Below, one piece after another: positions 1,237-29,925 of a DNA stretch of 45,292 nucleotides. The notes under the pieces were generated by a model that saw nothing but the letters and a program-made list of their open reading frames with translations, made no database searches and was not told the origin of the DNA. The position numbers and the translations under genes are program-made. Numbering within the stretch: position 1 is the stretch's first letter; each line of letters starts with the position of its first letter. Source of the DNA: Tubiluchus corallicola (Eukaryota > Priapulida > Priapulimorpha > Priapulimorphida > Tubiluchidae); NCBI GenBank assembly GCA_030141605.1, contig JAQGDQ010000563.1, forward strand, positions 35,001 to 80,292, read 5' to 3'.

Positions 1237-1335
1237 CTTTTGCAAACATTGGCAAGATGTCTGGGCTGCCCCAACACCAAGTGTAACGACTTTCATTAAA
1301 CAATGAGTCGAATTCAACAGGGTTTTCTTTCCAGC
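1237..1335 (-). CDS. PIGN: PIGN internal exon (GPI ethanolamine phosphate transferase 1)
   Basis: PIGN is an ER multi-pass enzyme that adds ethanolamine phosphate to the first mannose of the GPI anchor precursor. This 99-nt exon reads [16 protein letters not shown] and then [12 protein letters not shown] on the minus strand. I recognise this as the conserved part of the luminal alkaline-phosphatase-like domain. Its acceptor is TTGTAACAG before GCTGG and its donor is AAAG before GTAAGC. The exon starts with two bases that complete the Gly codon begun by the exon at 2471-2592 and ends one base into a codon, so the phases agree. The next exon, further downstream in the gene, is not in the window. 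No damage is visible. Confidence 0.93.
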
Positions 1336-1337: not shown

Positions 1338-2445
1338 GTTACAAGATAAAAACTGTATCAATATAAAATAAGCTTAGAATTATCCATATTTGGAAGAACA
1401 AATGTAACTACGTCAAAATAGAGTTCATTGCCGACAGACTTCGAACAAACTGTTCATTATCAAGGCATCTAAGAGATAGAAATTTACCAAAATTTAGAAA
1501 CAACATTGAAATGCAATTCAGTAGTTAATAACTAAGACAGATAGTATAGAACTGACAGTTTTGTTACAACTGACATATTTGTTAGTTTGTGGAGTGTTAA
1601 ATAGTTTCGTACCAATCAAGATATGTAATTTGTTAAATTATCTATCTAATATTATATCATATATCTTTTGGCTATTAACTACTGAATTGTATTTCGATGT
1701 TGTTTCTAAATTCTGGAAAATTTCTTTCTTTTGGAAGCTCTTGATAATGAACAGTTTTGTTTGAAGCCGGTCAGCAATAAATTCCATTTTGATGTAAAAT
1801 AAGTTTAGTATAATATCAGGTGATTATAAAATATTATTGCTACGTTGTTATGGAACAAGTTATAAACCCCAATATCGTAACACGAGAAACGGAAAACTAG
1901 AATTTGTTTGGCACATGAGATAATGCCAGCGCTGCCTCCTGTCCTTGACAGATCAGATACGTTTGTCTTTCTTGGTCACTACACGACTTCGCAGTCTTCT
2001 TAAAGGAAAAACCGGACCCAATCTTATAAACTTGTAGCTCAAAACGTCTATCCGACAAAACCTGCTCATTTTTCAAGAAAGACTTATGCGAACGAACCGC
2101 AGAAACGTAACCTCGCATTCGGTGCATCTAGTTCTTCGCTGTTACATGCACTTCATCATTCGCGGTTAGACGTGCAGTAGCAGCTGCATGCCGGAAACAC
2201 ATTGCACAAAAAGCAGGTGCCGTACCTCTGAGTTCAAATATATTCAATTGAGATCACAGAGGTGAAGCAGAATTTTGGACTTTTAAACTTAAAATTTGAG
2301 GACTTTTCGTATATCACGCTGCATGTTGAACTACATTTTCATTTAGCATATCACAACATCAGAAAGAATATAATATACGAACTATGAACCAATGTAGCTA
2401 GACAAATAACGATAAACCACGAGGAGTTTATGCTTACAAACAATT
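1338..2445 (-). other. PIGN intron between the two exons
   Basis: This AT-rich intron of about 1.1 kb separates the PIGN exons at 1237-1335 and 2471-2592. It ends at the TTGTAACAG acceptor before 1335. Short chance ORFs (for example 1897-2127, minus) show no recognisable protein. Apart from the donor duplication at its 5' end, I see nothing in it. Confidence 0.8.
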
Positions 2446-2491
2446 ACCTTTAGTTACTGAAGCCACATACCTTTAGTTACCGAAGCCACAT
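2446..2491. repeat. 23-bp tandem duplication covering a PIGN 5' splice site
   Basis: Positions 2446-2468 and 2469-2491 are the same 23 bp with one T/C difference. On the minus strand each copy ends in AACTAAAG followed by a usable donor: GTATGT at 2470 and GTAATT at 2447. Using the distal donor would add 23 nt and an immediate in-frame TAA. The proximal donor keeps the phase that fits the next exon, so I take it as the real one. Confidence 0.85.
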
Positions 2492-2592
2492 CCTCATAGA
2501 AGCCAGCAATAACTGCAACATTACCTGGTCTAGATTCAGTAGGAACACGTGTGTGAGAAACACCCCAGGATCCAACTTCGTCAATGATATGC
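2471..2592 (-). CDS. PIGN: PIGN internal exon with satellite-embedded acceptor
   Basis: This 122-nt exon of the same minus-strand gene encodes [20 protein letters not shown] and then [14 protein letters not shown], ending in VTK. The block [12 protein letters not shown] is the hallmark of PIGN near its N-terminal catalytic region. The enzyme acts in the ER membrane on GPI precursors. The acceptor is TTTCTTACAG before GCATATCATTG, and the exon enters with two bases already supplied upstream (Arg codon AG|G fits the family). The donor at 2470 gives a phase that matches the exon at 1237-1335. The acceptor and the first 11 exon bases are also the repeat unit of the long array at 2582-6581. Upstream exons (start of the protein) were not found in the remaining 38 kb. 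An AT-rich diverged exon could have been missed. Confidence 0.92.
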
Positions 2593-5500
2593 CTGTAAGA
2601 AACACAGTGATGATATGAGGCACACAATTATATGCCTGTAAGAAACACAGTGATGATGAGATGATATGAGGCACACAATGATATGCCTGTAAGAAACAAA
2701 GTGATGATATGAGGCACACAATGATATGCCCGTAAGAAACACAATGATGATATGAGACACACAATGATACGCCTGTAAGAAACACAATGATGATATGAGA
2801 CACACAATGATATGCCTGTAAGAAACACAGTGATGATATGAGGCACACAATGATACGCCTGTAAGAAACAGAGTGATGATATGAGACACACAATGATATG
2901 CCTGTAAGAAACACAGTGATGATATGAGGCACACAATGATACGCCTGTAAGAAACACAATGATGATATGAGACACACAATGATACGCCTGTAAGAAACAC
3001 AATGATGATATGAGACACACAATGATACGCCTGTAAGAAACACAATGATGATATGAGACACACAATGATATGCCTGTAAGAAACACAATGATGATATGAG
3101 GCACACAATGATACGCCTGTAAGAAACACAGTGATGATGATATGATATGAGGCACACAATGATACGCCTGTAAGAAACACAATGATGATATGAGGCACAC
3201 AATGATACGCCTGTAAGAAACACAATGATGATATGAGGCACACAATGATATGCCTGTAAGAAACACAATGATGATATGAGACACACAATGATATGCCTGT
3301 AAGAAACACAGTGATGATATGAGGCACACAATGATACGCCTGTAAGAAACACAGTGATGATATGAGGCACACAATGATATGCCTGTAAGAAACACAGTGA
3401 TGATATGAGGCACACAATGATATGCCTGTAAGAAACACAGTGATGATATGAGGCACACAATGATATGCCTGTAAGAAACACAATGATGATGATATGATAT
3501 GAGGCACACAATGATACCCCTGTAAGAAACACAATGATGATGAGATGATATGAGGCACACAATGATATGCCTGTAAGAAACACAGTGATGATATGAGGCA
3601 CACAATGATACGCCTGTAAGAAACACAATGATGATATGAGACACACAATGATACGCCTGTAAGAAACACAATGATGATATGAGACACACAATGATACGCC
3701 TGTAAGAAACACAATGATGATATGAGACACACAATGATACGCCTGTAAGAAACACAATGATGATATGAGACACACAATGATATGCCTGTAAGAAACACAA
3801 TGATGATATGAGACACACAATGATATGCCTGTAAGAAACACAATGATGATATGAGACACACAATGATACGTCTGTAAGAAACAGAGTGATGATGATATGA
3901 TATGAGGCACACAATGATACGCCTGTAAGAAACAAATGAACACACAATGATACGCCTGTAAGAAACACATGATGATATGAGACACACAATGATAGCCTGT
4001 AAGAAACACAATGATGATATGAGACACACAATGATATGCCTGTAAGAAACACAGTGATGATATGAGGCACACAATGATACGCCTGTAAGAAACAGAGTGA
4101 TGATGATATGATATGAGGCACACAATGATACGCCTGTAAGAAACACAATGATGATATGAGACACACAATGATATGCCTGTAAGAAACACAGATGATGATA
4201 TGAGGCACACAATGATACGCCTGTAAGAAACACAATGATGATATGAGACACACAATGATACGCCTGTAAGAAACACAATGATGATATGAGACACACAATG
4301 ATATGCCTGTAAGAAACACAGTGATGATATGAGGCACACAATGATACGCCTGTAAGAAACAGAGTGATGATGATATGATATGAGGCACACAATGATACGC
4401 CTGTAAGAAACACAATGATGATATGAGACACACAATGATATGCCTGTAAGAAACACAGTGATGATATGAGGCACACAATGATACGCCTGTAAGAAACACA
4501 ATGATGATATGAGACACACAATGATATGCCTGTAAGAAACACAGTGATGATATGAGGCACACAATGATATGCCTGTAAGAAACACAGTGATGATATGAGG
4601 CAAATGTGTGCCTGTAATAAACACAGTGATGATGAGATGATATGAGGCACACAATGATACGCCTGTAAGAAACACAATGATGATATGAGACACACAATGA
4701 TACGTCTGTAATAAACACAGTGATGATGAGATGATATGAGGCACACAATGATATGCCTGTAAGAAACACAATGATGATATGAGACACACAATGATACGTC
4801 TGTAAGAAACAGAGTGATGATGATATGATATGAGGCACACAATGATACGCCTGTAATAAACACAGTGATGATGAGATGATATGAGGCACACAATGATACG
4901 CCTGTAAGAAACACAATGGTGATATGAGACACACAATGATACGCCTGTAAGAAACACAATGATGATGAGATGCTATGAGGCACACAATGATATGCCTGTA
5001 AGAAACAGAGTGATGATGATATGATATGAGGCACACGATGATATGCCTGTAAGAAACACAATGATGATATGAGGCACACAATGATACGCCTGTAAGAAAC
5101 ACAGTGATGATGAGATGATATGAGGCACACAATGATACGCCTGTAAGAAACACAATTATGATATGAGACACACAATGATACGCCTGTAAGAAACACTATG
5201 ATGATGAGATGATATGAGGCACACAATGATATGCCTGTAAGAAACACAGTGATGATGAGATGATATGAGGCACACAATGATATGCCTGTAAGAAACACAG
5301 TGATGATGAGATGATATGAGGCACACAATGATACGCTTGTAAAAAACACAATGATGATATGAGGCACACAATGATATGCCCGTAAGAAACACAGTGAAGA
5401 TATGAGGCACACAATGATATGCCTGTAAAAAACACAATGATGATATGAGACACACAATGATACGTCTGTAATAAATACAGTGATGATGAGATGATATGAG

Positions 5501-6581
5501 GCACACAATGATATGCCTGTAAGAAACACAATGATGATATGAGACACACAATGATACGTCTGTAAGAAACAGAGTGATGATGATATGATATGAGGCACAC
5601 AATGATACGCCTGTAATAAACACAGTGATGATGAGATGATATGAGGCACACAATGATACGCCTGTAAGAAACACAATGATGATATGAGACACACAATGAT
5701 ACGCCTGTAAGAAACACAATGATGATATGAGGCACACAATGATATGCCTGTAAGAAACACAGTGATGATATGATATGAGGCACACAATGATATGCCTGTA
5801 AGAAACAGAGTGATGATGATATGATATGAGGCACACAATGATACGCCTGTAAGAAACAGAGTGATGATGATATGATATGAGGCACACAATGATATGCCTG
5901 TAAGAAACACGATGATGATATGAGGCACACAATGATACGCCTGCAAGAAACACAGTGACGATGCAATGATATGAGACACACAATGATACGCCTGTAAGAA
6001 ACACAATGATGATGAGATGATATGAGGCACACAATGATACGCCTGTAAGAAACACAGTGATGATATGAGGCACACAATGATATGCCTGTAAGAAACACAG
6101 TGATGATATGAGGCACACAATGATATGCCTGTAAGAAACACAATGATGATATGAGGCACACAATGATATGCCTGTAAGAAACACAATGATGATATGAGGC
6201 ACACAATGATACGCCTGTAAGAAACACAGTGATGATATGAGGCACACAATGATACGGCTGTAAGAAACACAGTGATGATATGAGGCACACAATGATATGC
6301 CTGTAAGAAACACAGTGATGATATGAGGCACACAATGATATGCCTGTAAGAAACACAATGATGATATGAGGCACACAATGATACGCCTGTAATAAACACA
6401 GTGATGATGAGATGATATGAGGCACACAATGATATGCCTGTAAGAAACACAGTGATGATATGAGACACACAATGATACGTCTGTAAGAAACACAATGATG
6501 ATATGAGACACACAATGATACGCCTGTAAGAAACACAATGATGATATGAGACACACAATGATACACCTGTAAGAAACACAA
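2582..6581. repeat. 4-kb satellite of 43/51-bp units made of a PIGN 3' splice site
   Basis: There are about 89 tandem units (counted by eye at the CCTGTAAG motif), basic length 43 bp, with frequent 51-bp variants carrying an extra 8 bp of the GATGATATG type. On the PIGN strand a unit reads TTTCTTACAG, GCATATCATTG, TGTGCCTCATATC, ATCATTGTG. The last unit toward the gene is the acceptor and start of the PIGN exon 2471-2592, so the array begins inside that exon at about 2582. Units differ mainly by T/C at TAYGCC and A/G at CACARTG. No stop codon exists in the minus-strand unit in any frame, which produces very long spurious minus-strand ORFs (up to 1332 codons). I do not consider these genes. 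The array ends at the 5' LTR. Confidence 0.95.
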
Positions 6582-6770
6582 TGTGAAAGTTATAACTGTA
6601 TATTTAGGTGCTGCCATCTATTGATTCGTTACTTGTTTATTCGAAACATTTACTAGTTGAATTCACCCCTTAATGCAATTGTATGTTCCAATGAATATTC
6701 AAACTCACTGTATCTCCCCTATTTTTCTGTAATGGGATATGTGAAGCCCAGTTCTTGCATACTTCTCTAC

Positions 6771-6779
6771 ATATATAAA
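6771..6779 (+). promoter_or_regulatory. LTR TATA-like box
   Basis: The sequence ATATATAAA, also present in the 3' LTR at about 12304, is the best core-promoter candidate of the element. The AATAAA signal lies about 150 bp downstream. Confidence 0.5.
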
Positions 6780-6921
6780 CTGGCTAGATTTCACTGCTAG
6801 TCACTCTCTGTCTCAGGCAGTGCAGTCATGTTACACACTGTCTCTCTGTCACACACTCAGTGCTGTGCAGCAGTTGTGATCATCATTCTACTTGTGCATT
6901 TTACTCATGTGTATTTAGTGC

Positions 6922-6927
6922 AATAAA
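6922..6927 (+). terminator. LTR polyadenylation signal
   Basis: AATAAA within GTGCAATAAAAGTG, repeated in the 3' LTR at 12455-12460, where it would serve to end element transcripts. Confidence 0.6.
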
Positions 6928-7016
6928 AGTGTTTCAGTTCTTGTGCAAATATTTAATCTTGTGTTTAGTTGTTTATACCAGTGTTCAATTTCGTCTTCAC
7001 AAATATCTTTCACATA

Positions 7017-7034
7017 TGGTCCTTCGAGCCGGAT
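7017..7034 (+). other. Primer binding site of the BEL/Pao element
   Basis: Two bases after the 5' LTR comes TGGTCCTTCGAGCCGGA. It starts with TGG, as expected for pairing with the CCA end of a tRNA primer, and contains TCGA as in a T-arm complement. I did not identify the tRNA. Confidence 0.7.
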
Positions 7035-7091
7035 TCGAGCCCAGACAGCGCACAGGGATAACCACACAGGACTTCTACTTCTGTCGTCAAC

Positions 7092-9581
7092 ATGACGGAG
7101 CAAGTGGAGAAAACTAAACGAGTTCGTCGAGCTCTGAGATCTTCACTCACTAAGGCTGACGAGCTAAATCAAGAGATTCCGAGGAAAGAAGAGGTAAGCC
7201 TTCTCTTATCAATTGTTACTGAAAGGGCAGAACGCCTGTTTGAAGCAGACAACAACATCTTGTCACAGTTGTTAGACGCTGACGCCGAACAGGTATCACT
7301 CGATGAGGAAGTCGAATCTGCTGATGAGTACAAATGGCGAATTACACGTGAAGTACATCGTGCCAATCAATTTCTTGGCCCTGCTTCCGCAGCTGACCAT
7401 CCTACCACTGGTCCTGCCGCAGGTGTCAGCCGAGCTGACACTCTCTCTGACAATTCACTTGCTCGTTCAACAGCTTTTACTCGCTTACCTAAGCTAATAC
7501 TGCCGAAATTTGATGGCCAGATTCTGGAATGGCTGGCGTTCTGGGAGCAGTTCGATGCTGCTGTTCATTCTCATGAGCATTTAGCACCTGTGCAGAAGTT
7601 CACTTACTTGAAAGGTCAACTATGCGGTGAGCCTGCCACAGCCATTGCCGGGTTGCCTCTTTCTTCAGCTAATTATGCAACCGCCATTCATCTACTTGAG
7701 CGTCGGTTCGGACGCAAAGAAGCACTAATAAGTGCGCATATGTCAGCACTTCTTCGATTGCAACCATGCACCTCTCTCGATGCGAAGCCACTTCGTAAAG
7801 TGCTCGATCAACTTGAGACAAACGTACGGGGTCTCGAAGCCCTCCATGCCACTTCGGATTCTTATGGTCGGTTACTAATACCGGTCCTGTTGTCTCGTAT
7901 TCCTTCACATCTTCGTCTCCAATGGGCAAAGAAGGATGCGGACGAAGAAGGTACAGTCACGGAACTTATGGAGTTTCTCAGAGATGACATCCAAGCTCGT
8001 GAGCGTGTCAGAGAAGTCAACTACTTCGTCGAGAAGCCTCCTCAACCAACTGTGAAACAGTGTTCTAGTAAACGTTCTACATTTCTGACAAGGGGCACCA
8101 ATAACAGTCAGTCATGTTTATTGTGTGGCGATTCGTGCAGAACCCCTTTCCATTGTCAGAAGTTCTTAAGCTTGTCCGTTGATGCTCGACAGCAGCTCAT
8201 CAGGGACAGACACTTGTGTTTCAATTGTTTATGGTCACATCGATTACAACAGTGCACATCCAAGAATGTGTGTCAAGAATGTGGTTCCTTGCATCATACA
8301 CTGCTGCATCGTGTTTCTTCAAACAGTGCATTCAGCGGAAGTTCTCCTAGTGTTGTTTGTGATCCGCCTTCTTCTAAACTCAACTGCATGGTGAAAACTA
8401 CCAGCAATGGTCACCGCACCGTTCTACAGACAGTTCTTGTCCACATGGATGGAATTGATCGTCCGGTTCGTCTACTCCTGGATAGTGGATCGGAAGAGAC
8501 TTACATCAGCGAAGCTCTCAGTCAACAAATTCAACGCAAACGGGCTACTCAATGTAAGTTGTTTCAAGTTCAAACTTTTGGTGGGACGAATACTTCCTCA
8601 ATTAACAGACAGAAATATGAGTTCAAACTGCGTAGTATGTATGATGATCAATGGTATTTTATGAATTGTTGGGTTGTTCCCTTCATATGTTCACCCCTTC
8701 AGGGTGTTGAATTGTCGTGCTTAACTATGTTACCACAAGGTTTAGATTATGCTGATGATTACAGTCAATTACAATTGCCTATTGATGTATTGGTTGGTAA
8801 TGATGCCCTTCCTCACATCTTTACCCCTAATGCTCCCATCTTCCACTCCAATCTTATGCTGATTCCTACCATCTTTGGTTGGACCTTGAGTGGTTGCGTT
8901 CCTAACTCCCTGTCACAACATTCCTCCTTGGTTCCTCTTGTACGCACTCTGTACTCTAGGAATGCAGATGCCAATATCTGTGAATCTTGGTGGCAGTTGG
9001 AGTCCATGAACATTCATCCTGACACGGAAAAGGACGAGTTTCCTTTATCCATCAAACACATTGATGGTCGATACGAGACTACTTTGCCATGGGCTGGGTT
9101 CGAACGTCCACAGTTCACTAAACAACAAGCCTTGGCACATAGTCGATCTTTCTACAGGTTGCCTCCAGAACGGCAACATCGATACAGAGACTCTTTAAAA
9201 GAGTGGCAAACCCTTGGAATCATTGAAGACGCACCTAACACAGATGGTGGCAATTTCCTACCCCATCATAGTCTCATCCAAGGAACAAAGTTGCGAGTTG
9301 TTTTCAACGGCTCAGCAAAGCCTACCATTGGCCTCAGCATCAACGATTGTCTGGTAACCGGTCCCAACATGCTCAGCGACCTTTTAGCCATTCTGGTACG
9401 TTTCCGCAGTCACCAAATTGGTCTAATTGCTGATATCGAGAAAGCCTTCCTGATGATTGGAATCTCGCCTCCAGATCGAGAATTTCTCAAATTCATTTGG
9501 GACTTGGACGGCAAACAGCACGTCAGCAGATTTGTTCTGCAAGCCCCGCCATTCTTCATGCCATCATTGCGATGCATCTAG
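7092..9581 (+). CDS. BEL/Pao Gag-protease-RT polyprotein, 5' part (frame broken in RT)
   Basis: This frame of 829 codons starts at ATG 7092, about 78 bp after the LTR. Seen in order: a charged N-terminal region; a DUF1759-like Gag region at about residues 132-275 (LPKFDGQILEW, ERRFG); two cysteine/histidine knuckle-like groups at about 342-405 (CLLCG, CFNCL, CQECG); a DUF1758-type aspartic protease with LLLDSGSEE at about 461-469; and the start of reverse transcriptase with RVVFNGSA and ADIEKAF (about 735-786). Reliable RT similarity stops near residue 814, and the last 15 residues are out of frame. The proper frame resumes in the ORF that overlaps from 9497. A short deletion that changed frame and removed the segment between RT motifs is the simplest explanation. 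The protein would be a truncated Gag-protease product. Confidence 0.9.
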   Translation: MTEQVEKTKRVRRALRSSLTKADELNQEIPRKEEVSLLLSIVTERAERLFEADNNILSQLLDADAEQVSLDEEVESADEYKWRITREVHRANQFLGPASAADHPTTGPAAGVSRADTLSDNSLARSTAFTRLPKLILPKFDGQILEWLAFWEQFDAAVHSHEHLAPVQKFTYLKGQLCGEPATAIAGLPLSSANYATAIHLLERRFGRKEALISAHMSALLRLQPCTSLDAKPLRKVLDQLETNVRGLEALHATSDSYGRLLIPVLLSRIPSHLRLQWAKKDADEEGTVTELMEFLRDDIQARERVREVNYFVEKPPQPTVKQCSSKRSTFLTRGTNNSQSCLLCGDSCRTPFHCQKFLSLSVDARQQLIRDRHLCFNCLWSHRLQQCTSKNVCQECGSLHHTLLHRVSSNSAFSGSSPSVVCDPPSSKLNCMVKTTSNGHRTVLQTVLVHMDGIDRPVRLLLDSGSEETYISEALSQQIQRKRATQCKLFQVQTFGGTNTSSINRQKYEFKLRSMYDDQWYFMNCWVVPFICSPLQGVELSCLTMLPQGLDYADDYSQLQLPIDVLVGNDALPHIFTPNAPIFHSNLMLIPTIFGWTLSGCVPNSLSQHSSLVPLVRTLYSRNADANICESWWQLESMNIHPDTEKDEFPLSIKHIDGRYETTLPWAGFERPQFTKQQALAHSRSFYRLPPERQHRYRDSLKEWQTLGIIEDAPNTDGGNFLPHHSLIQGTKLRVVFNGSAKPTIGLSINDCLVTGPNMLSDLLAILVRFRSHQIGLIADIEKAFLMIGISPPDREFLKFIWDLDGKQHVSRFVLQAPPFFMPSLRCI

Positions 9582-11800
9582 ACAGCCTACCGGCGACTTC
9601 AACAGTCACCTCTCTTAGGCACAATATGTATGTCGACAATCTCGTATCCGGTTGCGACTACGAAACCGACATCGATTCATTCAAATCCGAAGCTATTCAA
9701 GCCTTCGCCAGTGCCGGCATGAACCTTCGTGCTTGGCAGACTTCTTCCTCTTCTACAAGAGAACGGTGGGAGTGCAACACTGATGACTTTACCAAAGTTC
9801 TTGGCCTCAGCTGGTGCCATCAATCTGATACCATAGCCGCCAGCCTGAAGCTTTCATCTGAACCTCCCATCACTAAGCGTCAAATGCTAGCCGAAATCTC
9901 CAAGATTTTCGATCCTCTGGGATTTATTTCCCCCTTCACCATACGTCTCAGGATTCTCTTTCAGTCACTCTGGAGAGAGTCACTCAACTGGGAAGATGAA
10001 CTACCTTCCAGTACTGCAGTACAATGGGGTCGTTTCATTGAGGAAACACAGCAACACGAATCCAGGATACACTTTCCTCGATACGTACCAATGACTTCAC
10101 ACTCTGAACTTCACATCCTTTGTGATTCTAGTGAGGCAGCTTATGCAGCTGTTGCGTACATCAAGACAGACACCAATGTCGACTTACTCATTTCGAAGAG
10201 CAAACTAGCCCCACTTAAACCACAGACTCTGACTCTTCCACGTTTAGAGCTGATGGCTGCTCTTCTTGGGGCTCGTCTAGGGACTTACATCCAGCAGCAT
10301 GTACCAGTCCTATCATCATGTCTCAGACATTTCTACTCGGACTCAATGGTAACACTCGGATGGATACGCAGTATGCCAAAAGACGTGTTCGTGAGGAATC
10401 GAGTTCGTGAGATCCACACACTCTCGCAAGCATGCGAGTGGTCTCACGTACCTAGTTCGCAGAATCCCGCAGATCTGCCAACTCGAGGTTGCAAGCTACT
10501 CTACTTGCAACACCTGGACCTTTGGAGACATGGTCCACCTTTTCTCACACTCAGGGAGGAGTCGAACTACTCTGTCTGCGAACAGAAGTCCTCCACTTTG
10601 CTCACTGTAACAACTCCTCTTACAGACTCAGAGAAGACACCACTTTTTCCTGTGGACCGATGGTCTTCCTTACAACGAGCTATAAACATAACCTCTTATG
10701 TGCTCAGATTCGTTCATAATTCACGACTCCTCAAGTCAACTCGCGTCGGCGGACCACTTACGCCACACGAGAGAGTCAAGGCGATAAACGCTCTTCTCAG
10801 AGACAGTCAGTATGTTTACAACTCTGCAGACATACTTAACTTGCAAAAAGATGGTGATGTAACTCCCTCTTCTTCACTTTGGAATGCTCGTCCGCAGTGG
10901 TCCAAATCTCTTCAACTCATTATGTGTACACCGAGAAATGGTGAGCAGATGATACCTTGGTTACACCCAGGCTCGCCACTTACATCACTTATCATCATGG
11001 ATTGTCATCACAAACTTTATCATCAAGGCGTTTCCACAACAGCTACAGAAGTTAGCAAATGCTACTGGCTCCCAAAGCCTCACAGGACTGTCAAGAAGAT
11101 TCTCCAGAAGTGCGTTTCCTGCAAGAAGCTTCAAGGACGACCATACACTTCTACTGAAGGCAGTCTTCCACCATTCAGAGTCACAGAAGCGCGACCATTT
11201 GCGCATACTGGACTTGATCACTTCGGCCCATTGTATCTTGGCGACCAGACCAAATCATGGGTTCTTCTGTTCACATGTGCCGTCACTAGAGCCATACACA
11301 TGGAAGTTGTCACCTCACTCAATGAGAAGGACACTGGACTAGCTATTCGTCGGTTCTTAGCACGCCGTGGACCCGCACAATTCTACAGCGACAACGCTCG
11401 ATCATTCGTCAGCTTGGCGAAACACATGCAGAGGAGTCTAACCTGGACCTTCATCCCTGAAGCTGCACCCTGGTGGGGAGGTTACTGGGAAAGACTCATC
11501 GGAACTATCAAACGTTCTTGTCGCCAGACACTTGGCAGCACATCTTTATCTCTGACTGAACTCACCACAGTGGTCACAGAGTTAGAGGAACGCATCAATC
11601 GGTGCCCTCTCGTTTTGTCCGGAGATGAACCTTTGACTCCAGGACACTTCATCTTTGGAGCTACTCCACCAGCACTTTTGGACATAGGCATCCACGATTC
11701 ACCACCTCCTGAAGATCTACAGAGGAGATGGAAACATCGTCTCACCATCAGCACACATCTTTGGTCCAGATGGAGGAACGAGTACCTTCTATCCTTATGA
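9497..11800 (+). CDS. BEL/Pao RT-RNase H-integrase, 3' part (no independent start)
   Basis: This is the continuation of the polyprotein in another frame. Meaningful similarity starts near 9535 (SPAILHAIIAMHLD). The RT active-site box reads YVDN rather than YVDD (residues 45-48 of this frame). A Pao/A17 region follows (IFDPLGFISP, about 137-146). RNase H-like acidic residues lie at D210, E252 and D282, and NPADLPTRG follows. The integrase zinc-binding module has HH at 503-504 and CVSC at 539-542. The integrase core has D574 (GLDHFGP), D632 (YSDNA) and E665 (YWERL). The frame ends at TGA 11798-11800 after EYLLSL, while coding similarity continues in the same frame beyond it. Confidence 0.9.
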   Translation: MGLGRQTARQQICSASPAILHAIIAMHLDSLPATSTVTSLRHNMYVDNLVSGCDYETDIDSFKSEAIQAFASAGMNLRAWQTSSSSTRERWECNTDDFTKVLGLSWCHQSDTIAASLKLSSEPPITKRQMLAEISKIFDPLGFISPFTIRLRILFQSLWRESLNWEDELPSSTAVQWGRFIEETQQHESRIHFPRYVPMTSHSELHILCDSSEAAYAAVAYIKTDTNVDLLISKSKLAPLKPQTLTLPRLELMAALLGARLGTYIQQHVPVLSSCLRHFYSDSMVTLGWIRSMPKDVFVRNRVREIHTLSQACEWSHVPSSQNPADLPTRGCKLLYLQHLDLWRHGPPFLTLREESNYSVCEQKSSTLLTVTTPLTDSEKTPLFPVDRWSSLQRAINITSYVLRFVHNSRLLKSTRVGGPLTPHERVKAINALLRDSQYVYNSADILNLQKDGDVTPSSSLWNARPQWSKSLQLIMCTPRNGEQMIPWLHPGSPLTSLIIMDCHHKLYHQGVSTTATEVSKCYWLPKPHRTVKKILQKCVSCKKLQGRPYTSTEGSLPPFRVTEARPFAHTGLDHFGPLYLGDQTKSWVLLFTCAVTRAIHMEVVTSLNEKDTGLAIRRFLARRGPAQFYSDNARSFVSLAKHMQRSLTWTFIPEAAPWWGGYWERLIGTIKRSCRQTLGSTSLSLTELTTVVTELEERINRCPLVLSGDEPLTPGHFIFGATPPALLDIGIHDSPPPEDLQRRWKHRLTISTHLWSRWRNEYLLSL

Positions 11801-12016
11801 CAATGGAGAACCAAGACAAGATCTCCAGCTACTCCGAAGGAAGGAGACATCGTTCTCGTCCATTCCAAGCCTCTACCTCGATGGCGTTGGCCACTAGGGA
11901 GGATCGAATCACTGATTCCCGGTCGAGACGGAAATCCACGAGCCGCCTACATCAGGAGTCACGGACGCCTTACTCGCCGTCCCCTTTGTCTCCTCTACCC
12001 CTTAGAATGCACCTGA
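11801..12016 (+). pseudogene. C-terminal DUF5641-like tail of BEL/Pao polyprotein, beyond a stop
   Basis: This tail continues the 9497 frame directly after the TGA. It stays open for 71 codons, with QWRTK, GDIVLV, RWPLGRI and LIPGRDG, and ends at TGA 12014-12016. These are the features of the DUF5641 domain at the end of BEL/Pao integrases. The upstream TGA sits where this family commonly has arginine, so a CGA-to-TGA change is likely (inference). Confidence 0.8.
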
Positions 12017-12110
12017 TCTTTAATGACATACCTCCTAATTTGCATTGTTTCATTTATTTGACATTTTGTATTGTATTGACATGTATTGACACTCTAATTA
12101 TTTTCGTTTC

Positions 12111-12122
12111 AAGGTGGGAGGA
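12111..12122 (+). other. Polypurine tract of the BEL/Pao element
   Basis: AAGGTGGGAGGA lies immediately upstream of the TGTGAAAG start of the 3' LTR, the place and composition of a plus-strand primer. Confidence 0.8.
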
Positions 12123-12547
12123 TGTGAAAGTTATAACTGTATATTTAGGTGCTGCCATCTATTGATTCGTTACTTTAAACATTTACTAGTTGAATTCACC
12201 CCTTAATGCAATTGTATGTTCCAATGAATATTCAAACTCACTGTATCTCCCCTATTTTTCTGTAATGGGATATGTGAAGCCATGTTCTTGCATACTTCTC
12301 TACATATATAAACTGGCTAGATTTCACTGCTAGTCACTCTCTGTCTCAGGCAGTGCAGTCATGTTACACACTGTCTCTCTGTCACACACTCAGTGCTGTG
12401 CAGCAGTTGTGATCATCATTCTACTTGTGCATTTTACTCATGTGTATTTAGTGCAATAAAAGTGTTTCAGTTCTTGTGCAAATATTTAATCTTGTGTTTA
12501 GTTGTTTATACCAGTATTCAATTTCGTCTTCACAAATATCTTTCACA
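12123..12547 (+). repeat. BEL/Pao 3' LTR
   Basis: Direct copy of 6582-7014 (about 99 percent identical apart from an 8-bp gap). It ends CTTTCACA at 12547, followed by GGCACTGCTG, which is neither satellite sequence nor a copy of the left flank. Confidence 0.95.
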
Positions 12548-12612
12548 GGCACTGCTGTTGCTAACGATACTGCTGCTTTACTTTGCTGCTGCAGTAGCCG
12601 TTCTTGCTGCCG
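12548..12612 (-). other. GC-richer, exon-like flank of the BEL element
   Basis: About 65 bp rich in CTGCTG and GCTGCT stand out from the AT-rich surroundings. On the minus strand they read as a Gln/Ala-rich stretch (RQQERLLQQQSKAA) cut off exactly at the LTR. On the plus strand they read as a hydrophobic tail ending in TAA. This may be the remains of a host exon truncated by the element, or only a CTG-rich repeat. I do not recognise a protein. Confidence 0.25.
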
Positions 12613-15585
12613 TGTTTTAAGTAGTACAATGAAGAGTAAATAAAAAATCATGAATCGACTGTAACGTAAACTGAATTAAATTTAGAGTTAATTAAGTTAA
12701 AAACTATTTCAAGATGAAAAAGCTCGTTATTTTTCAGTTCAAACGTTTCACGAGATGTTGTGTTAACAGTCTAGAAGTTTAGGGGGAAGTATGGAAGCAG
12801 TATATATAAGCATTAGAACATGTTAATAGCTATATCTCCGAAATCATTTAAAGAAGTTGTTCAACTCGGTAGTTCACTAATAAATGTCAGACTTTTTTAA
12901 AGGACAAGAATAGGGGCACCTAAAGTTGGTTTCAAAAAAATCGCCTTAAAACTTATACTACTTCACAGCAATTTTACGAACATATCGTACACGCGTTGAA
13001 ACGAATTTTTACTTGATACATTTTAAATCTCCCACAATACTGTTCCGACGTCGCCATTACATGACGTCACTACGCAAACATAAATCAGGGAAAGAAAAGG
13101 AGATGTTAAATTACGTCCCCAAAGCTTTCCAGTCAAAACTATATTGCTTAGCATTTCGCTTACCTGCTGGAAAGACTTATTTAACTAGATGTAATAATAA
13201 TTTAAAATGTTCGTGCCAATTGGTAAAATGTTACTGGCATTCAAGAATGTATGTTTAATCTTATTTACAACATGCAGTAATTGACAGTGTATGCTACGAA
13301 TGCTCTGATTATTTTTTCAAACGTTACTCAGTGTGATCTAAACTTGTTTCAGTCATCAGGGATGTTTAAACTTGCACATTTTATACAGAATTAGGGCCGA
13401 TACAAGTACTACATGCGAAAAGGCATTATGTAAGTTGTATCAAATTTCAAGACACATTTTTAAGCTAAAAGTTATTTGAGGATTTCTTGTGCTTGAAGAA
13501 AGCTTTCACAATCTACGTTGTGTTACAGGTAATTAGCTGTTAACTACTAACTACCACTGTTAACTATTAACAATTGTGGCGATGAAAAGGACATCCTTAG
13601 TAGAAAATATTTAATTAAGATATACCAGTTTGGAGCCACCAGAGAGAAAAAATTTCTTCTTTTTTACAGATTTCGTTAAGTCCTCACAGTTCAGCCATTT
13701 TGAACAGTTTTGCATCCCTTGCAAGTGGAAAAATCCAACAGGACATCTGGAAGATGGTAACACTGAGTGCAACGGCGACGATGACAATGATGACGATGTT
13801 AATGATTTTTTTGATGATAGTAGTGATAAGTAACCTGCAAAAACGAGGCTGTGTTAAGTTACACCACTTTCTATCTAGAAAAGCAATCAAATGGAACAGT
13901 ATTTGAATATGTAAGAGAAAAAATAACAGCACTTGTAACGTAGCTTCTTAATTGTTTTCTACTTTATGTTTTTCTACTTTGTTTAGTGGTTAGAGGTTAG
14001 TGGTTAGAAGAGTCGCTCTTGTTGTGGTGTTAGAAACAGCAGGGTGGACCACTAACCACTGGTCAAGGGGCAGGGCAATAGACGTCAGCTAGTTTTACTT
14101 TTAGGTCGCATCTCCTCATAGGGCTTTTCGTTTCTTCAATTTTGTTTCGCAAACATTTTGTGTTCTGTAGGGCAGATGTGCACCTGGGTTTTAAAAAGCT
14201 GACAAGCTTTAAACACTCGAGGGAGTGGTCAAAACGCAAAATATGGGGTCCCCAGTTGGTGACCTTTTACATGCTGAAGGCTAGAGACACAAAACTCACA
14301 GGGTACGCCATCTTGGCAAAGTTGCCTATATACAGATGTAGCAAGTAGTAGTAGTAGCAGCACTAAATTTATTGACTGATGACAGTCCATTCAAATCCAT
14401 TTAAAATTGCATGTTAAGTTAGTTGTAACAAAAAATTTGATCGTTTGAAAATACTAAATCTCTCATAAGCAAAATGCATTAGATTATGTTGGCCCAAGCT
14501 AATACATAATGACTGTATATTAGTAAAGTCCAAATTGCTATACAGTTCTCTAAAATGTTCACTTTCCCACACTGGCACTGTATGTGTTGTTCTGCAAACA
14601 CAAAGGGAATCTTTCCTGGATATCCTATTCCATCTCGCTCCATGATCCTGTAAACTCAAGTCTTTCACTTCAGGTACATTATCACTGAATTCCTGGTTTA
14701 CGTAGACTTTATGGACTCCTAACTGAGGATTGATTGTAGATTATGTACTTAGATCCAGATGAGTTAAAGATTTTATTTTGCAATATTTTGCCCTTCCACA
14801 TCTATAGGATTTTCTTCACATTAGAAACGTATTTAGCTGCAAGCAGTACAAGTTTCATGATCATGATTTTAGACACCAAAAAGTCTTGATACCCGAAAGT
14901 GTACACTGTACGTCCAATTTTGGAGTTCCTTCATAGGTCTCAATGCATTTCTTATGTTTTTAAGATTTTTGGAGTTTATATTCTGTGAATTAAAGCTAGA
15001 AGAAGAATTTTTGCACTCGATTACTTGCATCTGTAGCAAAAGTTGGCGAGAAATGTAGCCGGCTTTAAAAGATGAAGCCATTTAACCTTTTAAACTTAAT
15101 ATAAAAAGTTTACTATTCTACTTAAGAGAGAATTCTCTGTTTTTAGCTTAATCCTTAACATATCAATGGAATGCAAGATGTATTTCCGTTTTTTCCATTT
15201 AAATTTCAATGGTCGAAAACAGGAGATTTCAGAATTTTTCAAAAATCGTTCCGAACTGCGGATGTATATCTGAAATTCTTCTGGAGACTCCTGACCAAAT
15301 CAGTACTGGTTCATGTACATTTATGAACTCATTCATTCATAAAATGAGACTCATTCTCATTTTAATTTACTGTCCAAAATATACATTTTCTTGGCTAAAA
15401 AGTTAACAATTGTTCTCTTATATTTGAACCTTAAAAGCCAATTAACGGCAACCGAACATGGCTATTGCTTACAGCAGAAACTAACCACAGTTTCTGCAAT
15501 GGCAGGCATCTTTCCTTGCGCGTCAAGCACATTTGCGTAGGTGTTACAGTACTGCTTAAATATTCCTGGTCTTTTTTACAATAGA
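12613..15585. other. Intergenic or intronic sequence with no recognised gene
   Basis: This is AT-rich sequence. A (GAY)n-rich patch at about 13772-13830 yields a short acidic ORF. An inverted TAGTGGTTAG / ACCACTAACCACT pair lies at about 13984-14062. A good-looking acceptor, TTTCTTCTTTTTTACAG, precedes 13669, but no convincing exon follows. Nothing else was supported. Confidence 0.5.
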
Positions 15586-15587
15586 CT

Positions 15588-15800
15588 ATACTTTTACTAT
15601 TAGAAGATCAGTACTTGCAACTTTTACTATTACAAGATCAGTACGTGCAACTTTTACAATTAGAAGCTCAGTACGTGCAACGTTTACTATTAGAAGATCA
15701 GTACGTGCAACGTTTACTATTAGAAAATTAGTACGTGCAACTTTTACTATTAGAAGATCACTACGTGCAACGTTTACTATTGGAAAATCAGTACGTACTA
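15588..15800. repeat. 30-bp minisatellite, about 7 units
   Basis: The unit is roughly TTTACTATTAGAAGATCAGT followed by ACGTGCAACG, repeated with single-base differences. As 30 is a multiple of three, the minus strand shows a chance ORF with a 10-residue period (VARTDLLIVN). It has no other protein features. Confidence 0.9.
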
Positions 15801-18785
15801 CCAATATGCTCACCAATAACAACAATTTGTAGCATCGAAAGGATAACCCAAAACTAAACGTTTATTCAAAACAACTAAGCTATTTGAACTTGACAAATAA
15901 TTCGTACCATAAAATTTTTATTATATTTACCTGTTGCAAACATAGTATCGATGATAAGCTCACATGAATATATAAACATCACAACAAAAAAAGCAATCTG
16001 CCATTCCCTAGTACACCGAACCATTACTGTTGGAACGTTGCTTTGGCGTTGGCGTTGGTCTTTTTCAAACGTCTGGCGTTGGTGTTTAGATTGAAATTAA
16101 CAGAAATGATAAATTCAAAGTGGTGATACAAATTCGGAAGTTCCTTGAATACTATCTTGCAAAACCTAGAAAATTAACGTACACATCATTTTGTAAAGAA
16201 ATTTTTATATAATTAACCTTAGATCGACTATATGATCAACTTAATATAATTCATTATAACTAATAATAATATATATATATAACTAATCAATATATTATAA
16301 TAACACAAAATGTCTATGATCAATTTAAAATTATACTGCAATGTGTTTTAACTCGAAGATTAAACTTACTTATGCGTTCTGTATTTATTTTCACAAATGC
16401 AAAAAAATATATATACCTACACTCCAGTACTGGAAGCTGCCGTGGCTCTGATTACTTGTACCTTGTTAATATTAAAAAAGTTGCTTGTATAAATTGGAGC
16501 TGTCCAAGAACTAACAACGTCTACAATGGTATTAAGATTGAAAAAGCTTTCGTGTAAATCACTCATGTTAGAAAGCTTAAAAACTGGGTTATTTGAATGA
16601 TTACCGAGACGTTCAGAGAAGCAAGATTAATTTAATAAATATGAGAAATTTTGTGCTAAATTGAAATCAAAGATTTCAAGAAATTCCCTATAATCTCATA
16701 GCTACCAAAAAAGCTTCTCGTGGTTTGCATAAAGTATACGGCAGAAGAAAAAGGCAAATACACAAGTAAATACGTGCGTAATGGACTTTACAGCAGTCAT
16801 GCCACTTAGGGGAGTTGATAAGAGCAAAAATTGCTCAATTTTTGATAAAATTTGTACAGCTGTAGCATTTGACAAATCCTTTTAGTTAAATTATAGTTCT
16901 ACGAATTGCTCTAGCTATCTCCATAAAATATTTCTGATCGTAAATAGTGCCACACTAATTAATAAGTTTTGCACATTTTAAAAGGCATATTGGTGCAATT
17001 GCAACAGCTCACTGTGCAACGCTTGTACAAACTTTTCACAATGCCAGATAACACGTGGCAACTACACGTTTTAATATTGTATTGGTCCGACATTTGCAAA
17101 AACAATGTGACATCATTAGTTCAACATTGTCGTGCAACGTGGAATAATTATGGAATACTGGTTGCTTCTGTAACCTCCCCTTATTAAATTAAAATAAGTT
17201 TATACCCGATTCTTCGATTATCTTACATGTTAATATAAATTTACTAATCAATCAACAGGCTCAGCCCGCCATAAGCTTCACTTGGGTTGCTTGATACACG
17301 TGGTGTGAATTTTTTCCTAGTCTTTTAGACACTAAGACTGCTGGTAATAAATCTAGTAGAGCCAATAGTAGCCAAGCTGCTTGTTTTATTAATAGAACGT
17401 AATACGAGGTAATTACATATGTTTTCTAATGTAAAAATCATACGAAACTAGTGGCCAAAGTTTCTGAGGCGGTCAGGAACTGAAGATTTTACAAACAATA
17501 ATTACAGAATTACAATGTTGAAAATCATGATTTTATTGAATTCTAGTTGCTTGATTACCTGGTGGGCCTTGGCAGGTAATACTAGCACTAAAATATCGAT
17601 CTGTGGGAGTTTATTGGAACACAAATGTTTTTTCTGAATCAGTAAGTATGTTATGTAGTATTCTAGAATCCCCTGTGGATTGACCTTTGGGAAATTTTTT
17701 TTGGGTCGGCTGAATTTAGGCCCAGATGAGCCTGAAAATGTAGAAATTTGTGCACGGCAAGAATGAGGTCATACAAGCTTTGAGAGGCTACAATTTTTTA
17801 GCATTATGCTCAAGTATGATTATCTAGATAGTTGCAGAAAAAATTTGAATGGTCCGTCATGACTCACCAACCTAAAAACTGTCCCGTCTCAGAAGAGTCC
17901 ATTAATGTATTGAAGATACACGATGTTCATTTTTCTCAAGCTACTTTTATTACAACTGTAAAATTTTTGCCTATACAGTGTTCTGTTCTTACACACGGTT
18001 AGATAAAGTTCCAGCGTCATGCTTACATAAAATATTACAAAAAAGTGATAAGCACATAGCTTTAGATGCATATTTTTCATTTTACCACCTTAAATCATTT
18101 AAGTTTATGATGAATGATCCTCATTATATTTAAAGAATATTTCTCATTGTATCTCATTGGAACAAATTGTCAAAAGTCTATCCTCGTGTGACACAGGAAC
18201 TTGACTCGAGTCATGTAACCATCCCATCAAGATTAGCCTTAGCAGTAATATCAATTAGTTACAATGGTTACTATTTAAATTAGTAACAGCCTTGGTAAGA
18301 AGGTTAGATTGGATTTTGAGCTGTTTGTAGTGTTTAGGAGTAGGGTGAGTTACACAATTACATTAAAAAAATGTGTTAAGAAGCGAGGTAATTCGGTAGT
18401 TTTTTTTTTACTTAAGTTTCAAACATTTCATAATTGCGGCCATGCAAAAACGAAACCACGATAATCAGGCATCGTATTAGCTGTTTCACATAAAAAAACT
18501 ATTATAAAAACAAAAAGAAATTATTTTTGTCATTTTAGCTTTGTTTAATCTAGAAACTACTAGACCCAAAAAATTTAAAAAAGAAGGAAAATAATAAGCA
18601 AAAAAGTTGTGAAATTTTGATAATGCACCTGGGAGATTAATTGTTACGGGGTCAGTCGAAAATTCTGCAATAATGTCACCATTTTCAAGGTGACCAACAA
18701 GATTTTTGTCGCTAGTTCTTAAAAAATATCACTGAAAAAGCAATGGGCACTGCAAACTGATCAAACTTTGTTATAATTGGTTTGG
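15801..18785. other. AT-rich stretch, no gene seen
   Basis: Contains an A/T-only dinucleotide-like patch at about 16258-16300 and a GCGTTGG repeat patch at about 16037-16080. Only short ORFs occur, with no recognisable protein or splice-flanked exon. Confidence 0.5.
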
Positions 18786-18788
18786 CCT

Positions 18789-18960
18789 GTATGGTAGTAA
18801 TTATTATTATTATTATTCAGTTAAACTTTAACAATATCAACAATACAATACAATCCACATCACTTGTTAAATGCAAAGTCTGTCTGACAAATCACTGTGC
18901 TGCACGAAACAAACTGTTCAATACAGAATCTATAAATCATAAAATATGGTGATGTAAATT
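18789..18960 (+). repeat. Local direct repeat, copy 1
   Basis: Aligns with 19089-19240: GGTAGTAATTATTATTAT, CATTCAGTTAAACT (ATTCAG here), ATGCAAAG, GAAACAAACTGT and CAATACAGAAT occur in the same order, with many substitutions. Confidence 0.7.
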
Positions 18961-19088
18961 GTAACAGTGACTGTAACAAATTTCTGTTATCGTAACGCCC
19001 AGAGTGTCTTAAAGACATACGACTGAAGTAATGGATATTGCCAAAGAATCAACTCTGTCAGCCAACACTTTTGTCAACACTGATTTGG

Positions 19089-19240
19089 TATACAAGGTAG
19101 TAATTATTATTATCATTCAGTTAAACTGTAAAAATATAAACAATAGCATGTATGTCATGCATGTTGGACATGCAAAGCATTGTGCCGTAAGAAACAAACT
19201 GTCCAATACAGAATTTATAAAATGATTTGGTGATACAAAT
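19089..19240 (+). repeat. Local direct repeat, copy 2
   Basis: Second copy of 18789-18960, about 300 bp further on. It has CAGTTAAACTGTAA, CATGCAAAGCATTGTGC, GAAACAAACTGTCCAATACA and TTTGGTGATACAAAT. An old duplication or two insertions of one element. Confidence 0.7.
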
Positions 19241-21300
19241 AACATTAAATCTAAAACAATCTCTCCCATTCAATGCATCTGCCCAGAGCTGTTCAAGCAA
19301 AACAAGTATGAAGAATACGGCAGGCATGGGAAAAATTGTCGGAATTTCTATTTTGTTGTGAAAAGAATGGGAGGGCGGGAAATCATAGAAAACTGTAAAT
19401 TGAGAAAAAAGAAGCCATATTAATGTGATGACTACACATCTACCTGACTCGTTAACTTATTACACACACAATGATATCTCAAAGATTGTATGCAAACATG
19501 CAGTAATAATAAGATGATCTAAATAATACTTCAAAACGTTGTATTAGTAATATGGCAAAACGTATAGAGTTTACTAATAACACTGAAATGTGTGTAGGCA
19601 ACTTGAGTTTCAAAAATAACCAGTCAAACATTATGCTGTGTTCGGTACACAAATATTAGTTATGAAAAAACATGTAACATTTATGTACAAAATTAGACGT
19701 AAAACAAATAGCCAAACACCCAGCTCAAGATCTATAGTGTGATCACTATTCATTTTAATAATTTTTTATACAATAGTAAAATACTTAAGTAAAAAGGTAT
19801 ATTCAGGTTGTTTTCAACTTGTTTTGTGCAAAACTTCTTTCAGTAGCATGACGTCACCAATGCACAAAACTCTTCTGCCTGCTTCAAAATGATTTCTTCT
19901 GTGACGGCTTGAACAGTCAGACAGCTTGGAGAATAGTCAGGTGAAAGTGCGAAAAGGAATAAGTCACATCATCTGCTTCCTTTTGGATTTTAGCAAAGCT
20001 CAATGATGGGTCTAAAAATCTTCAGCTGGTCAGCTGTGGAAGCAATTAAAGCACAATGTTCATTTTTTGCTGTCAATCTTGCTAAACAACTTCTGGAAGT
20101 TTTCCTTATTAATTATTGGAGCCTTTGTTCTGGTATGCCAAACGAGAACCTGAAACAGAAAAGCATTTGTATAAAACAGGCTGTCTTGGCCTTCTACAAA
20201 TTTCTTTGCTTTATCACATAAAAAACAAGACATCGAGATTACTAAAAATGGCGTAACTTCTATACATTAGAAAAATAAGCTATAGTCTCCTGGGAATTTA
20301 GTAGTGTTGTACTAATAATATAACATTGTGTTTATTACTAATGACAACGCAGAGTTTTTTAAGTTTTCAATGAATGGTCATTACATGTATCATATTATAA
20401 TTATTATTTGATCTGTTTTTCATTATTGATGCATGCAATTGATGTTTGAACATATTTTCCATTGATTTCATTGATGATTAGATCACTAACAAAAAAGAAG
20501 AAAGGCACGTTTAGGTACTTTGTTATTTTAGGTACAAATTTAAAATTTCCTTAACAAATGAACAAAGAGACATTTATAACTGATGTTGCCTTTTGCAACA
20601 TATTGTTTGTTTTAGTATAAAAGGTATTTACGTTTTCAAAACTTTTGTGAGTGCCGTGTAACATTCTTAATGCAGCACTTTATTAATTATATGACAACGT
20701 ATTTTATTGTTTCTGTTGTTAAAATTACATGCATCAAAACTGTTGCATCCTGCTTTTTAGTATTGCTTGTTAAATTTTACATTGTTTCTGTTTTTGTGAA
20801 TGTACGAGCATTTTTATAACATGTATGTATGTAACATGTATTTTTTTGCCTGAAATTGGGAGCTTTTGCAACTTTAATAGTTCATTATTGGTTTGTTAGC
20901 TTACCTGAAAATTACCTGTAGATATGGTAAATACAGACTCCAAGTTCTTATGTGTACTTTTTATAACTTATAAAAACTTGATGAACATAGGCATAGTGTC
21001 ACTTTGATTCATTTGTGATTTTCAAACAAGTCTATTGTTTGTTTACTAATCTATTCCAAACAACAAAACATTTTGGCAAATACCTTATGTGATGTGTTTA
21101 CATTGTATTTTTGCTGAATTCTAATTTTTTCTCCACAATCAATTTTTTGGCAAGACATGTAGTGTTGAAAAAGATGAATTCTTTTTTGTTGTTGTTTGTC
21201 TTGTTAAAAACTTTTGCTAAGCCCATAGGACAGTAACGTGCCATATTTGTGCAAGAACTTTAATCACTGGCTAATCTGCAGATATAGATTTTCCGAACAA
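19241..21300. other. AT-rich stretch, no gene seen
   Basis: No ORF longer than about 72 codons, no recognised motif and no repeat structure that I can support. Confidence 0.5.
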
Positions 21301-21308
21301 TTAATGAG

Positions 21309-21330
21309 ACGTTAATTAATTAATTAACGT
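21309..21330. repeat. 22-bp perfect palindrome
   Basis: ACGTTAATTAATTAATTAAC plus GT reads the same on both strands. It sits in AT-rich sequence and may have arisen by chance from the TTAA repeat. Confidence 0.7.
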
Positions 21331-21802
21331 TAAAATCTTTCGACACTTTAACGGTTTTTTTGGGGCATCTTTTCCGGGCCATCTGTCCAGATTTTTAATG
21401 AGATAGAGGTGCTGTACTTAGCAAATATACTCAGCTGCTTCAAGAGACTGTAACAGTCTATTAACTGAATCACTCCTGTTGAAAGCTATAACTGTTAAGG
21501 TCAAGTGAAAATCTTTCACATTTAGAGAATGTGGGTCCATTTGTATGAGGTAGACAGTCTTGGTCGTAAATTTATCTTTTCATGCGGTTTAACAGATTCT
21601 CAAATAAATGTTAGAATGATTAGTAAACAACACAAAATGGTCATATACGCCTTTAATAATATTTTGAATGTGTATACAAGTTTTTTAGCGAAATATGCGC
21701 CAGGGACACGCATGTACATTTTTACAACATGAAATTATGTGTTCGGTTCTTATGCAGACAAGATTTACCGACAATATTTTCGCTGGGGGAAACAGTCTTC
21801 AT

Positions 21803-21841
21803 TCTCTCTCTCTCCGTCTCTCTCTCTCTATACACACACAA

Positions 21842-21932
<91 letters not shown>
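21803..21932. repeat. (CT)n then (CA)44 microsatellite
   Basis: A CT-rich run at 21803-21829 is followed by an uninterrupted CA run at 21845-21932. The ORFs across it are artefacts of the dinucleotide repeat. Confidence 0.97.
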
Positions 21933-21936
<4 letters not shown>

Positions 21937-22580
21937 AATACATATCACAAAATTTAGCGGATATTAGATATTCTTACTTGCTGTTTTTCATAAAATATTT
22001 TTGTATTTATTAACTTTTAATGAGACAGGCTCCTGTCTCTTTTTCATGTTTTGCGATGACTTTTTGTCCAGTGATACTTTGAATAAAAGTGCTGCATTTT
22101 TAGTTATAAGATTTTCATAGTAATTTGGTGAATGTCTGACTGATCAGAAGACAAAATTTATGACCTAATACTTGCATTGCAAGTTGCTAACTACCATGTC
22201 ACTTGAGTATGTAAGTATGCTGAATAGGTAAAAATATGCAAATAAACTGAATAAAACATTAGAAAGTTTAAATTCTGGGCAATAAGTGATCAGTGGAGTA
22301 GCAAGTGCTGGTGGCATCGTGGGGCAAAAAAAATTCTGGCGTCCTGCACTGTTAAACTTTTTAAGATAAGTGGTGAATCCACAAATTGTGCGCGTTTTAT
22401 TGTGTCCCTGAGCCACACTCTCCCATCCTTATGATGGGATAAAGATAAACTATTTTTTTCTAAAAATCACCTTGAGTTGTATTTGCGGTACTGCGCCAGA
22501 ATAAGTCTTTTCTAAGCATTAGTTGTTCATAACACGACATTCCTTAAACATTCAGCTGCAACATTAAAACATGCAAAGTT
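21933..22580. other. No gene; possible old transposon fragment
   Basis: Around 22290 the string AGTGGAGTAGCAAGTGCTGG resembles the ends of some DNA transposons. The match is short and I could not define an element. Confidence 0.3.
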
Positions 22581-22584
22581 TATG

Positions 22585-22700
22585 AAAGATACAGAATTCT
22601 ACAGGTTTTCACAATAATAAAATCGGCACTTAGAGAAACAGTGGAGTTTGTTTAAATGCTGGTCGTATCATTATGAAAACCTGTAGAATTCTGTATCTTT
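22585..22700. repeat. 27-bp perfect inverted repeat with 62-bp loop
   Basis: Positions 22585-22611 (AAAGATACAGAATTCTACAG then GTTTTCA) are the exact reverse complement of 22674-22700. A transcript would fold into a 27-bp stem. The right arm overlaps the 3' end of the exon-like stretch at 22674-22851. No element ends are seen around it. Confidence 0.9.
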
Positions 22701-22702
22701 GA

Positions 22703-22851
22703 CTTAGGCAATTTTGCTGTATCTTGAAAACCTTTATTAATTGTTTTGTTAATGTCAGATAATTGTGTGCTTGCATTGTAAAATCGTCCAAGCCCATCAC
22801 TCATAACTAAGCTGAGATAATCCACGTTGAAGTTGAGCTGCTGGCTACGCA
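22703..22851 (-). other. Exon-like open stretch, product unknown
   Basis: On the minus strand the acceptor-like GTTTTTCAG at 22860-22852 is followed by an open frame reading RSQQLNFNVDYLSLVMSDGL and then GRFYNASTQLSDINKTI. The composition looks protein-like rather than random AT-rich translation. No strong donor follows (the best is AAAG before GTTTTC). I do not recognise the family. It may be one exon of an unseen gene or a piece of a decayed element. Confidence 0.3.
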
Positions 22852-22860
22852 CTGAAAAAC

Positions 22861-24720: not shown

Positions 24721-24724
24721 AGTA

Positions 24725-26615: not shown

Positions 26616-26719
26616 TTTTGCCGGCGCCATTTTCCAGATTACCCAGGTTAATTTATTGACACAAGAAGATTTTAATTCTGTTTCGGAATTTTGCACTTCT
26701 TTAACATGAATGAAATGAG

Positions 26720-29894: not shown

Positions 29895-29925
<31 letters not shown>

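Follow-up and report, generated by a model that had tools for sequence, protein, structure and literature searches.

A splice-boundary minisatellite at a PIGN exon of the priapulid Tubiluchus corallicola

We analyzed a 45,292-nucleotide (nt) stretch of the Tubiluchus corallicola genome, hereafter the window, which is part of contig C2296 (GenBank JAQGDQ010000563.1) and whose numbering is used for all coordinates unless another contig is named. On its minus strand lie exons of a gene that we take to be PIGN. One of these exons is preceded by a tandem array of 89 units that repeat its own 3′ splice site.

PIGN exons and the acceptor array

The exon adjoining the array is 122 nt long (2471..2592, minus strand), and its translation shares 76% identity over 42 residues with human PIGN. 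The same comparison gave 83% identity over 40 residues for the next exon (1237..1335, minus strand), the boundaries of which were set by eye. The upstream exon was located on a different contig, C1766 (alignment 964-1164, minus strand). It terminates in ...ALYL-AG|GTAACA, with a donor phase compatible with an exon start at 2592, such that AG and the first G of the downstream exon join into an Arg codon. Homology of the exon itself and phase of its upstream partner both confirm the start at 2592, as the sequence-only reading of this locus had proposed. The authentic acceptor AG, assigned from reading frame and homology, occupies 2593..2594 (minus strand) and is the last in the row. Further PIGN exons, reaching near the C-terminal end, were found on C2296, C1270, and C1964, and the exon set seen is incomplete.

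The array occupies 2582..6581 on the same strand. Tandem Repeats Finder called it at 2582-6580 with a period of 43, 88.6 copies, and 86% matches. Splitting 2582-6581 along the PIGN strand gave 89 units, of which 57 measure 43 nt, 24 measure 51 nt, and eight have other lengths, the most distal being a 15-nt stub. The 51-nt units carry 8 extra nt internally. The 43-nt unit reads GC(A/G)TATCATTG TGTG(C/T)CTCATATCATCA(C/T)TGTGTTTCTTACAG and is composed of 32 nt of intron end and 11 nt of exon start. Each unit thus joins a 3′ splice site to the opening 11 nt of exon 2471-2592, arranged as a CTCAT word (which we take to be branch-point-like), a pyrimidine tract, ACAG, and the 11 exonic nt. The exon's own copy of these 11 nt (2582-2592) lies within the array, as had been claimed.

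The splice signal is well preserved among units. The terminal AG is retained in 87 of 89, ACAG in 85, and the full TTTCTTACAG in 78. The earlier figure of about 89 near-identical acceptors holds for the units and needs adjusting for the signals: two units have lost their AG, and two stray AGs inside units bring the total on the PIGN strand back to 89. No GTRAG donor word occurs on the PIGN strand of 2582-6581. All 68 window copies of TTTCTTACAGGCRTATCATTG fall inside the array, where none would be expected by chance in the window. The array is young or well homogenized, as only 26 rare substitutions are present, spread over 18 of the 89 units, and the array is otherwise near-uniform save for a few dimorphic columns. 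Three of the 26 lie in the four exon-nearest units, numbers too small for a comparison of homogenization at the edge. A higher-order repeat was also considered and rejected, with unit identity by lag showing no clear period and two 5-unit blocks each recurring once.

Reading frame and acceptor choice

To rank acceptors we used a crude matrix. The authentic acceptor scored 7.1 bits, a value that 8 of the 4765 AGs found elsewhere in the window, on both strands, attain. Within the array, 76 of the 89 AGs, the authentic one included, scored at least as high. In comparison, the distal and presumably ancestral acceptor on C1766 scored 0.7 bits.

Among the AGs of the window array, which this test covered, only the last of the row gives an intact reading frame. 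Use of any of the 88 upstream AGs leads to a stop before the donor, both for the 29 that are in frame and for the 27 and 32 that fall in the two remaining frames. The exon-proximal unit (2593..2635, minus strand) carries a private C-to-A change (GCATATAATTG), seen by comparison of units, which creates an in-frame TAA 13 codons before the junction. All 29 in-frame upstream AGs meet this TAA. For 20 of them it is the sole stop, while the other nine also meet an earlier one. Possible single changes in this unit that would make such a stop number 11 of 135 (~8%). RNA structure that might hide the decoys was assessed over 201 nt around the authentic acceptor, giving z = -2.2 with 4 of 200 shuffles as good.

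These frame relationships and the homology of the exon suggest that the exon-proximal acceptor is most likely the one used, the others being decoys; the sequence-only reading had named choice of the last acceptor as one outcome, and its question was sound. The explanation we consider probable is a splice-boundary minisatellite, or 'mirage', which grew from the junction and whose exon-proximal acceptor is in use. A splicing rheostat is an unlikely alternative, in which equal acceptors would compete, upstream-spliced transcripts would be destroyed, and unit number would tune PIGN output. The number of array AGs scoring at or above the authentic site, the stops that follow all 88 alternatives, and the closure of in-frame cases by the private TAA would all suit it. 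However, with ~8% of single changes able to make such a stop, this seal may be luck. The tract and AG show no excess conservation, and we reject selection on the array acceptors on this basis. Moreover, the amphioxus mirages reportedly leave splicing undisturbed (PMC3087553).

Several points weigh against a mirage with its last acceptor in use. The acceptor choice is based on frame and homology. Tract and AG are not spared by substitutions (6 of 26 rare changes against 7.3 expected, P = 0.38), so that selection on the decoys is not apparent. The name PIGN depends on comparison with the human sequence, and Pfam and PDB searches with the PIGN exons returned no match. Array length depends on an assembly whose redundancy and breaks fall precisely at the array, and placement of the C1766 and window pieces on one allele is only likely. 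Finally, the resemblance between tract and exon described below was tested post hoc, after the match had been seen, and the ~18 nt between the matching ends have no clear similarity by eye, leaving the middle unaligned.

Array ends, copy number and local origin

Contig C1766 supplies the distal end of the array. Past the upstream exon and its donor, this contig carries unique intron sequence (173 nt, with ...TTGGTTGCCATA at its end), next ACAGGCGTATCATTG, and finally 18 units, after which it stops. At the exon side, ACAGGCATATCATTG runs into the exon's ACGAAG. The 15-nt junction word ACAGGCRTATCATTG therefore flanks the array at both ends, with one G/A difference between them. This is expected if amplification split the single junction of a 177-nt intron, and argues that the array grew from the junction rather than being inserted beside it. 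The longest exact stretch common to the C1766 and window pieces is 145 nt. As disjoint parts of the window array share exact stretches of 127-202 nt, the two pieces are not overlap-like. If they belong to one allele, the array comprises at least 107 units. The previously noted length of about 4 kb is accurate for 2582-6581, but the end at 6581 is probably not that of the real gene, with 18 more units on C1766.

Across the 343.5 Mb genome, the search counted 106 exact copies of the 21-mer junction word TTTCTTACAGGCATATCATTG. These counts cover exact matches and are lower bounds for the repeat. The 100 places listed divide among C1270 (33), C1964 (33), C1766 (7), and C2296 (27). As a part of C2296, the window itself contains 33 copies, and 33+33+33+7 = 106. 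By this accounting, all counted matches fit one locus, represented by three redundant contigs and C1766. Scans of viral and prokaryote contigs yielded 0 matches each to the array unit, as expected. Altogether, the sequence data support derivation of the array by amplification of the local intron-exon boundary, in keeping with the earlier proposal. Abundance of the satellite genome-wide, which had been named as the observation that would overturn it, was not seen among the exact matches.

A BEL/Pao long terminal repeat (LTR) retrotransposon (6582..12547, plus strand) adjoins the distal array end in the window. C1270 and C1964 match the PIGN-array-Pao sequence of C2296, the two alignments covering 12,357 bp (100% identity) and 12,534 bp (one mismatch). 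An additional 28.3 kb is common at 100% identity, for a redundant PIGN stretch of ~40 kb in all (99.99-100%). Once past the Pao LTR at its outer edge, each of the three contigs continues into different sequence (at 60144 on C1270 and 39166 on C1964). We interpret C1270, C1964, and C2296 as redundant routes that the assembly took through a dispersed element; they do not look like independent haplotypes. Because the same PIGN-array-Pao sequence has different flanks, and the upstream exon and further array lie on C1766, the sequence at 12548..45292 is probably misjoined. It is probably not PIGN intron, and genes there would not be PIGN-intronic. No target-site duplication of the Pao element was present at the window join, and a search for the far-side LTR-array junction gave 0 matches, so that the expected partner of the element within the array was not found.

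These features bear on whether the copy number was inflated, or the array made, by the assembler. Three contigs bearing the same ~40 kb with different flanks, together with an array truncated where C1766 begins, would be compatible with such an artefact. Against this, units are distinguished by shared and private variants, 18 of them stand on a separate contig with its own unique flank, and the redundancy affects whole contigs rather than units. We regard an artefact as quite improbable. Least probable of all is a satellite from elsewhere that inserted beside PIGN and supplied an acceptor and 11 exon bases by chance: nothing in its favor was found in the exact-match search, the 106 matches and the junction word at both ends rule out insertion of a dispersed satellite as far as exact matches go, and the 11 exonic bases contribute to the coding of an R-x-I-I stretch also present in human PIGN.

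Origin of the unit, known parallels and other features

Growth from the junction raises the question of where the unit itself came from. Its spacer differs from the upstream intron sequence on C1766. The pyrimidine tract GTGTTTCTTACA is identical at 11 of 12 positions to exon positions +30 to +41 (GTGTTTCTCACA), and the match is offset by one base from that expected were the unit the exon's own first 43 nt. In controls, no match of this quality lay within 2 nt of the observed offset, either among 5236 random 32-mers or among 1037 pyrimidine-rich AG 32-mers, while matches at any position numbered 18 and 4, respectively. Duplication of the junction together with the exon head is a plausible source of the unit on this sequence similarity.

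We infer the following order of events. The ancestral intron would have been ~177 nt long and ended ...TTGCCATAACAG|GCATATCATTG, with a single junction ...TTGCCATAACAG|GCATATCATTGACG. A duplication taking in this junction would have created a second acceptor, its tract GTGTTTCTTACAG possibly copied from exon coding sequence GTGTTTCTCACA. Unequal exchange or slippage could then have raised the number of copies to at least 89, and probably at least 107. Extra copies would pile up on the intron side and leave the exon intact. Normal mRNA would use the exon-proximal acceptor, assisted by exon definition over the 122 nt of the exon, and upstream-acceptor transcripts would acquire a premature stop and presumably be removed by nonsense-mediated decay.

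A bolder version appears unlikely to us. Here the exon would have written its own splice site, with a tract of exonic origin much stronger than the old acceptor, and its spread would have yielded more than 100 near-equal acceptors, those in frame being closed off by a stop. Unit number would then set the amount of functional PIGN mRNA, and could vary within the body, as is reported for amphioxus Adh3.

Repeated splice sites have human parallels. IFI6 (6-16) contains a minisatellite with multiple splice donors, and CBS has a 31-bp variable number tandem repeat where exon 13 meets intron 13. Both likewise place a variable tandem repeat at an exon-intron boundary and repeat a splice site, but unlike the PIGN array they affect the donor side, have fewer units, and are human. 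A nearer parallel comes from amphioxus, which has a GC content of ~41% (36.4% in the window). The sequence-only reading knew of no described array of this kind, but the amphioxus 'mirages' are such arrays: boundary-spanning minisatellites in Branchiostoma Adh3 and the globins BflGb6 and BflGb9, as described in PMC3087553. There, Adh3 data and globin reverse transcription PCR suggest that mirages leave regular splicing undisturbed.

The PIGN array is a real, exceptionally large example of this kind, with a well-supported origin. Its unit spans intron end and exon start, 87 of 89 units carry AG, and its derivation is local (106 of 106 counted exact matches, a lower-bound count, with both ends bracketed). 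Features shared with the amphioxus mirages are the many units with AG or GT signals, the involvement of both acceptor and donor boundaries, and possibly concerted evolution among units (PMC3087553). Differences are also apparent. The window array has 89 units versus 6 and 3 in two BflGb6 haplotypes, its 43-nt unit compares with 150-160 bp in BflGb6, 157 bp in BflGb9, and 10-72 bp in Adh3, and four boundaries are affected in one PIGN gene, unlike the amphioxus cases described there (PMC3087553). The Rogers model of intron gain through duplication including AG/GT proto-splice sites, as cited in PMC3087553, is similar in that duplicated sequence yields new splice signals. In PIGN, by contrast, an existing intron was apparently lengthened and its acceptor replaced, with no new intron.

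The locus would represent a natural extreme, in which the spliceosome chooses one acceptor among ~100 near-identical ones 43 nt apart, and an intron of ~177 nt expanded to several kilobases through repetition of its boundary, with the protein unbroken. Junction-spanning repeats recur at 4 of about 26 boundaries seen in PIGN, the large array included. A 23 bp x 2 duplication (2445..2491, minus strand) spans the 3′ end of exon 2471 and its donor GTATGT, the second copy reading GTAATT. On C1270, a 61 bp x 2 duplication with 100% matches (94933-95053) covers the acceptor and start of exon SFDPASVY, and a 65 bp x 6.0 array (96347-96738) covers the end and donor of exon ...LVLIMSDFMG. Tandem repeats make up 10.5 of the 31.4 kb of PIGN examined, about a third. 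Circular shifting of 19 arrays predicted 8.1 spanned boundaries against the 4 seen, while a null in which arrays could overlap an exon by no more than the observed maximum (44 nt, a limit chosen post hoc) predicted 0.8 (P = 0.006). Boundary lists for these nulls (25 and 26) were set by eye, and in the list for the second, 4 of 13 acceptors are off AG (two by one base, one by two, and one taken from an alignment end). Because the two nulls disagree, we claim recurrence but no enrichment. If 4 of about 26 boundaries typifies the genome, this species would be well suited to studies of how splice sites evolve, perhaps outside amphioxus.

A further 69-bp x 6.4 array (743-1185) lies ~50 nt beyond the donor of PIGN exon 1237-1335. 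Its unit, read in the orientation of PIGN, contains TTCTTCAG, four bases, and GTAAGT, an acceptor-like plus a donor-like site. The Pao element (LTRs at 6582-7014 and 12123-12547) looks young by LTR similarity, with 4 substitutions and a single 8-nt gap between the two LTRs. To the right of 12547, a 366-aa reading frame (42135-43235) has no Pfam match at 0.001 and is glycosyltransferase-like by eye only, and a second reading frame (37932-38909) encodes a sulfotransferase (PF03567 Sulfotransfer_2, E 2.8e-48).
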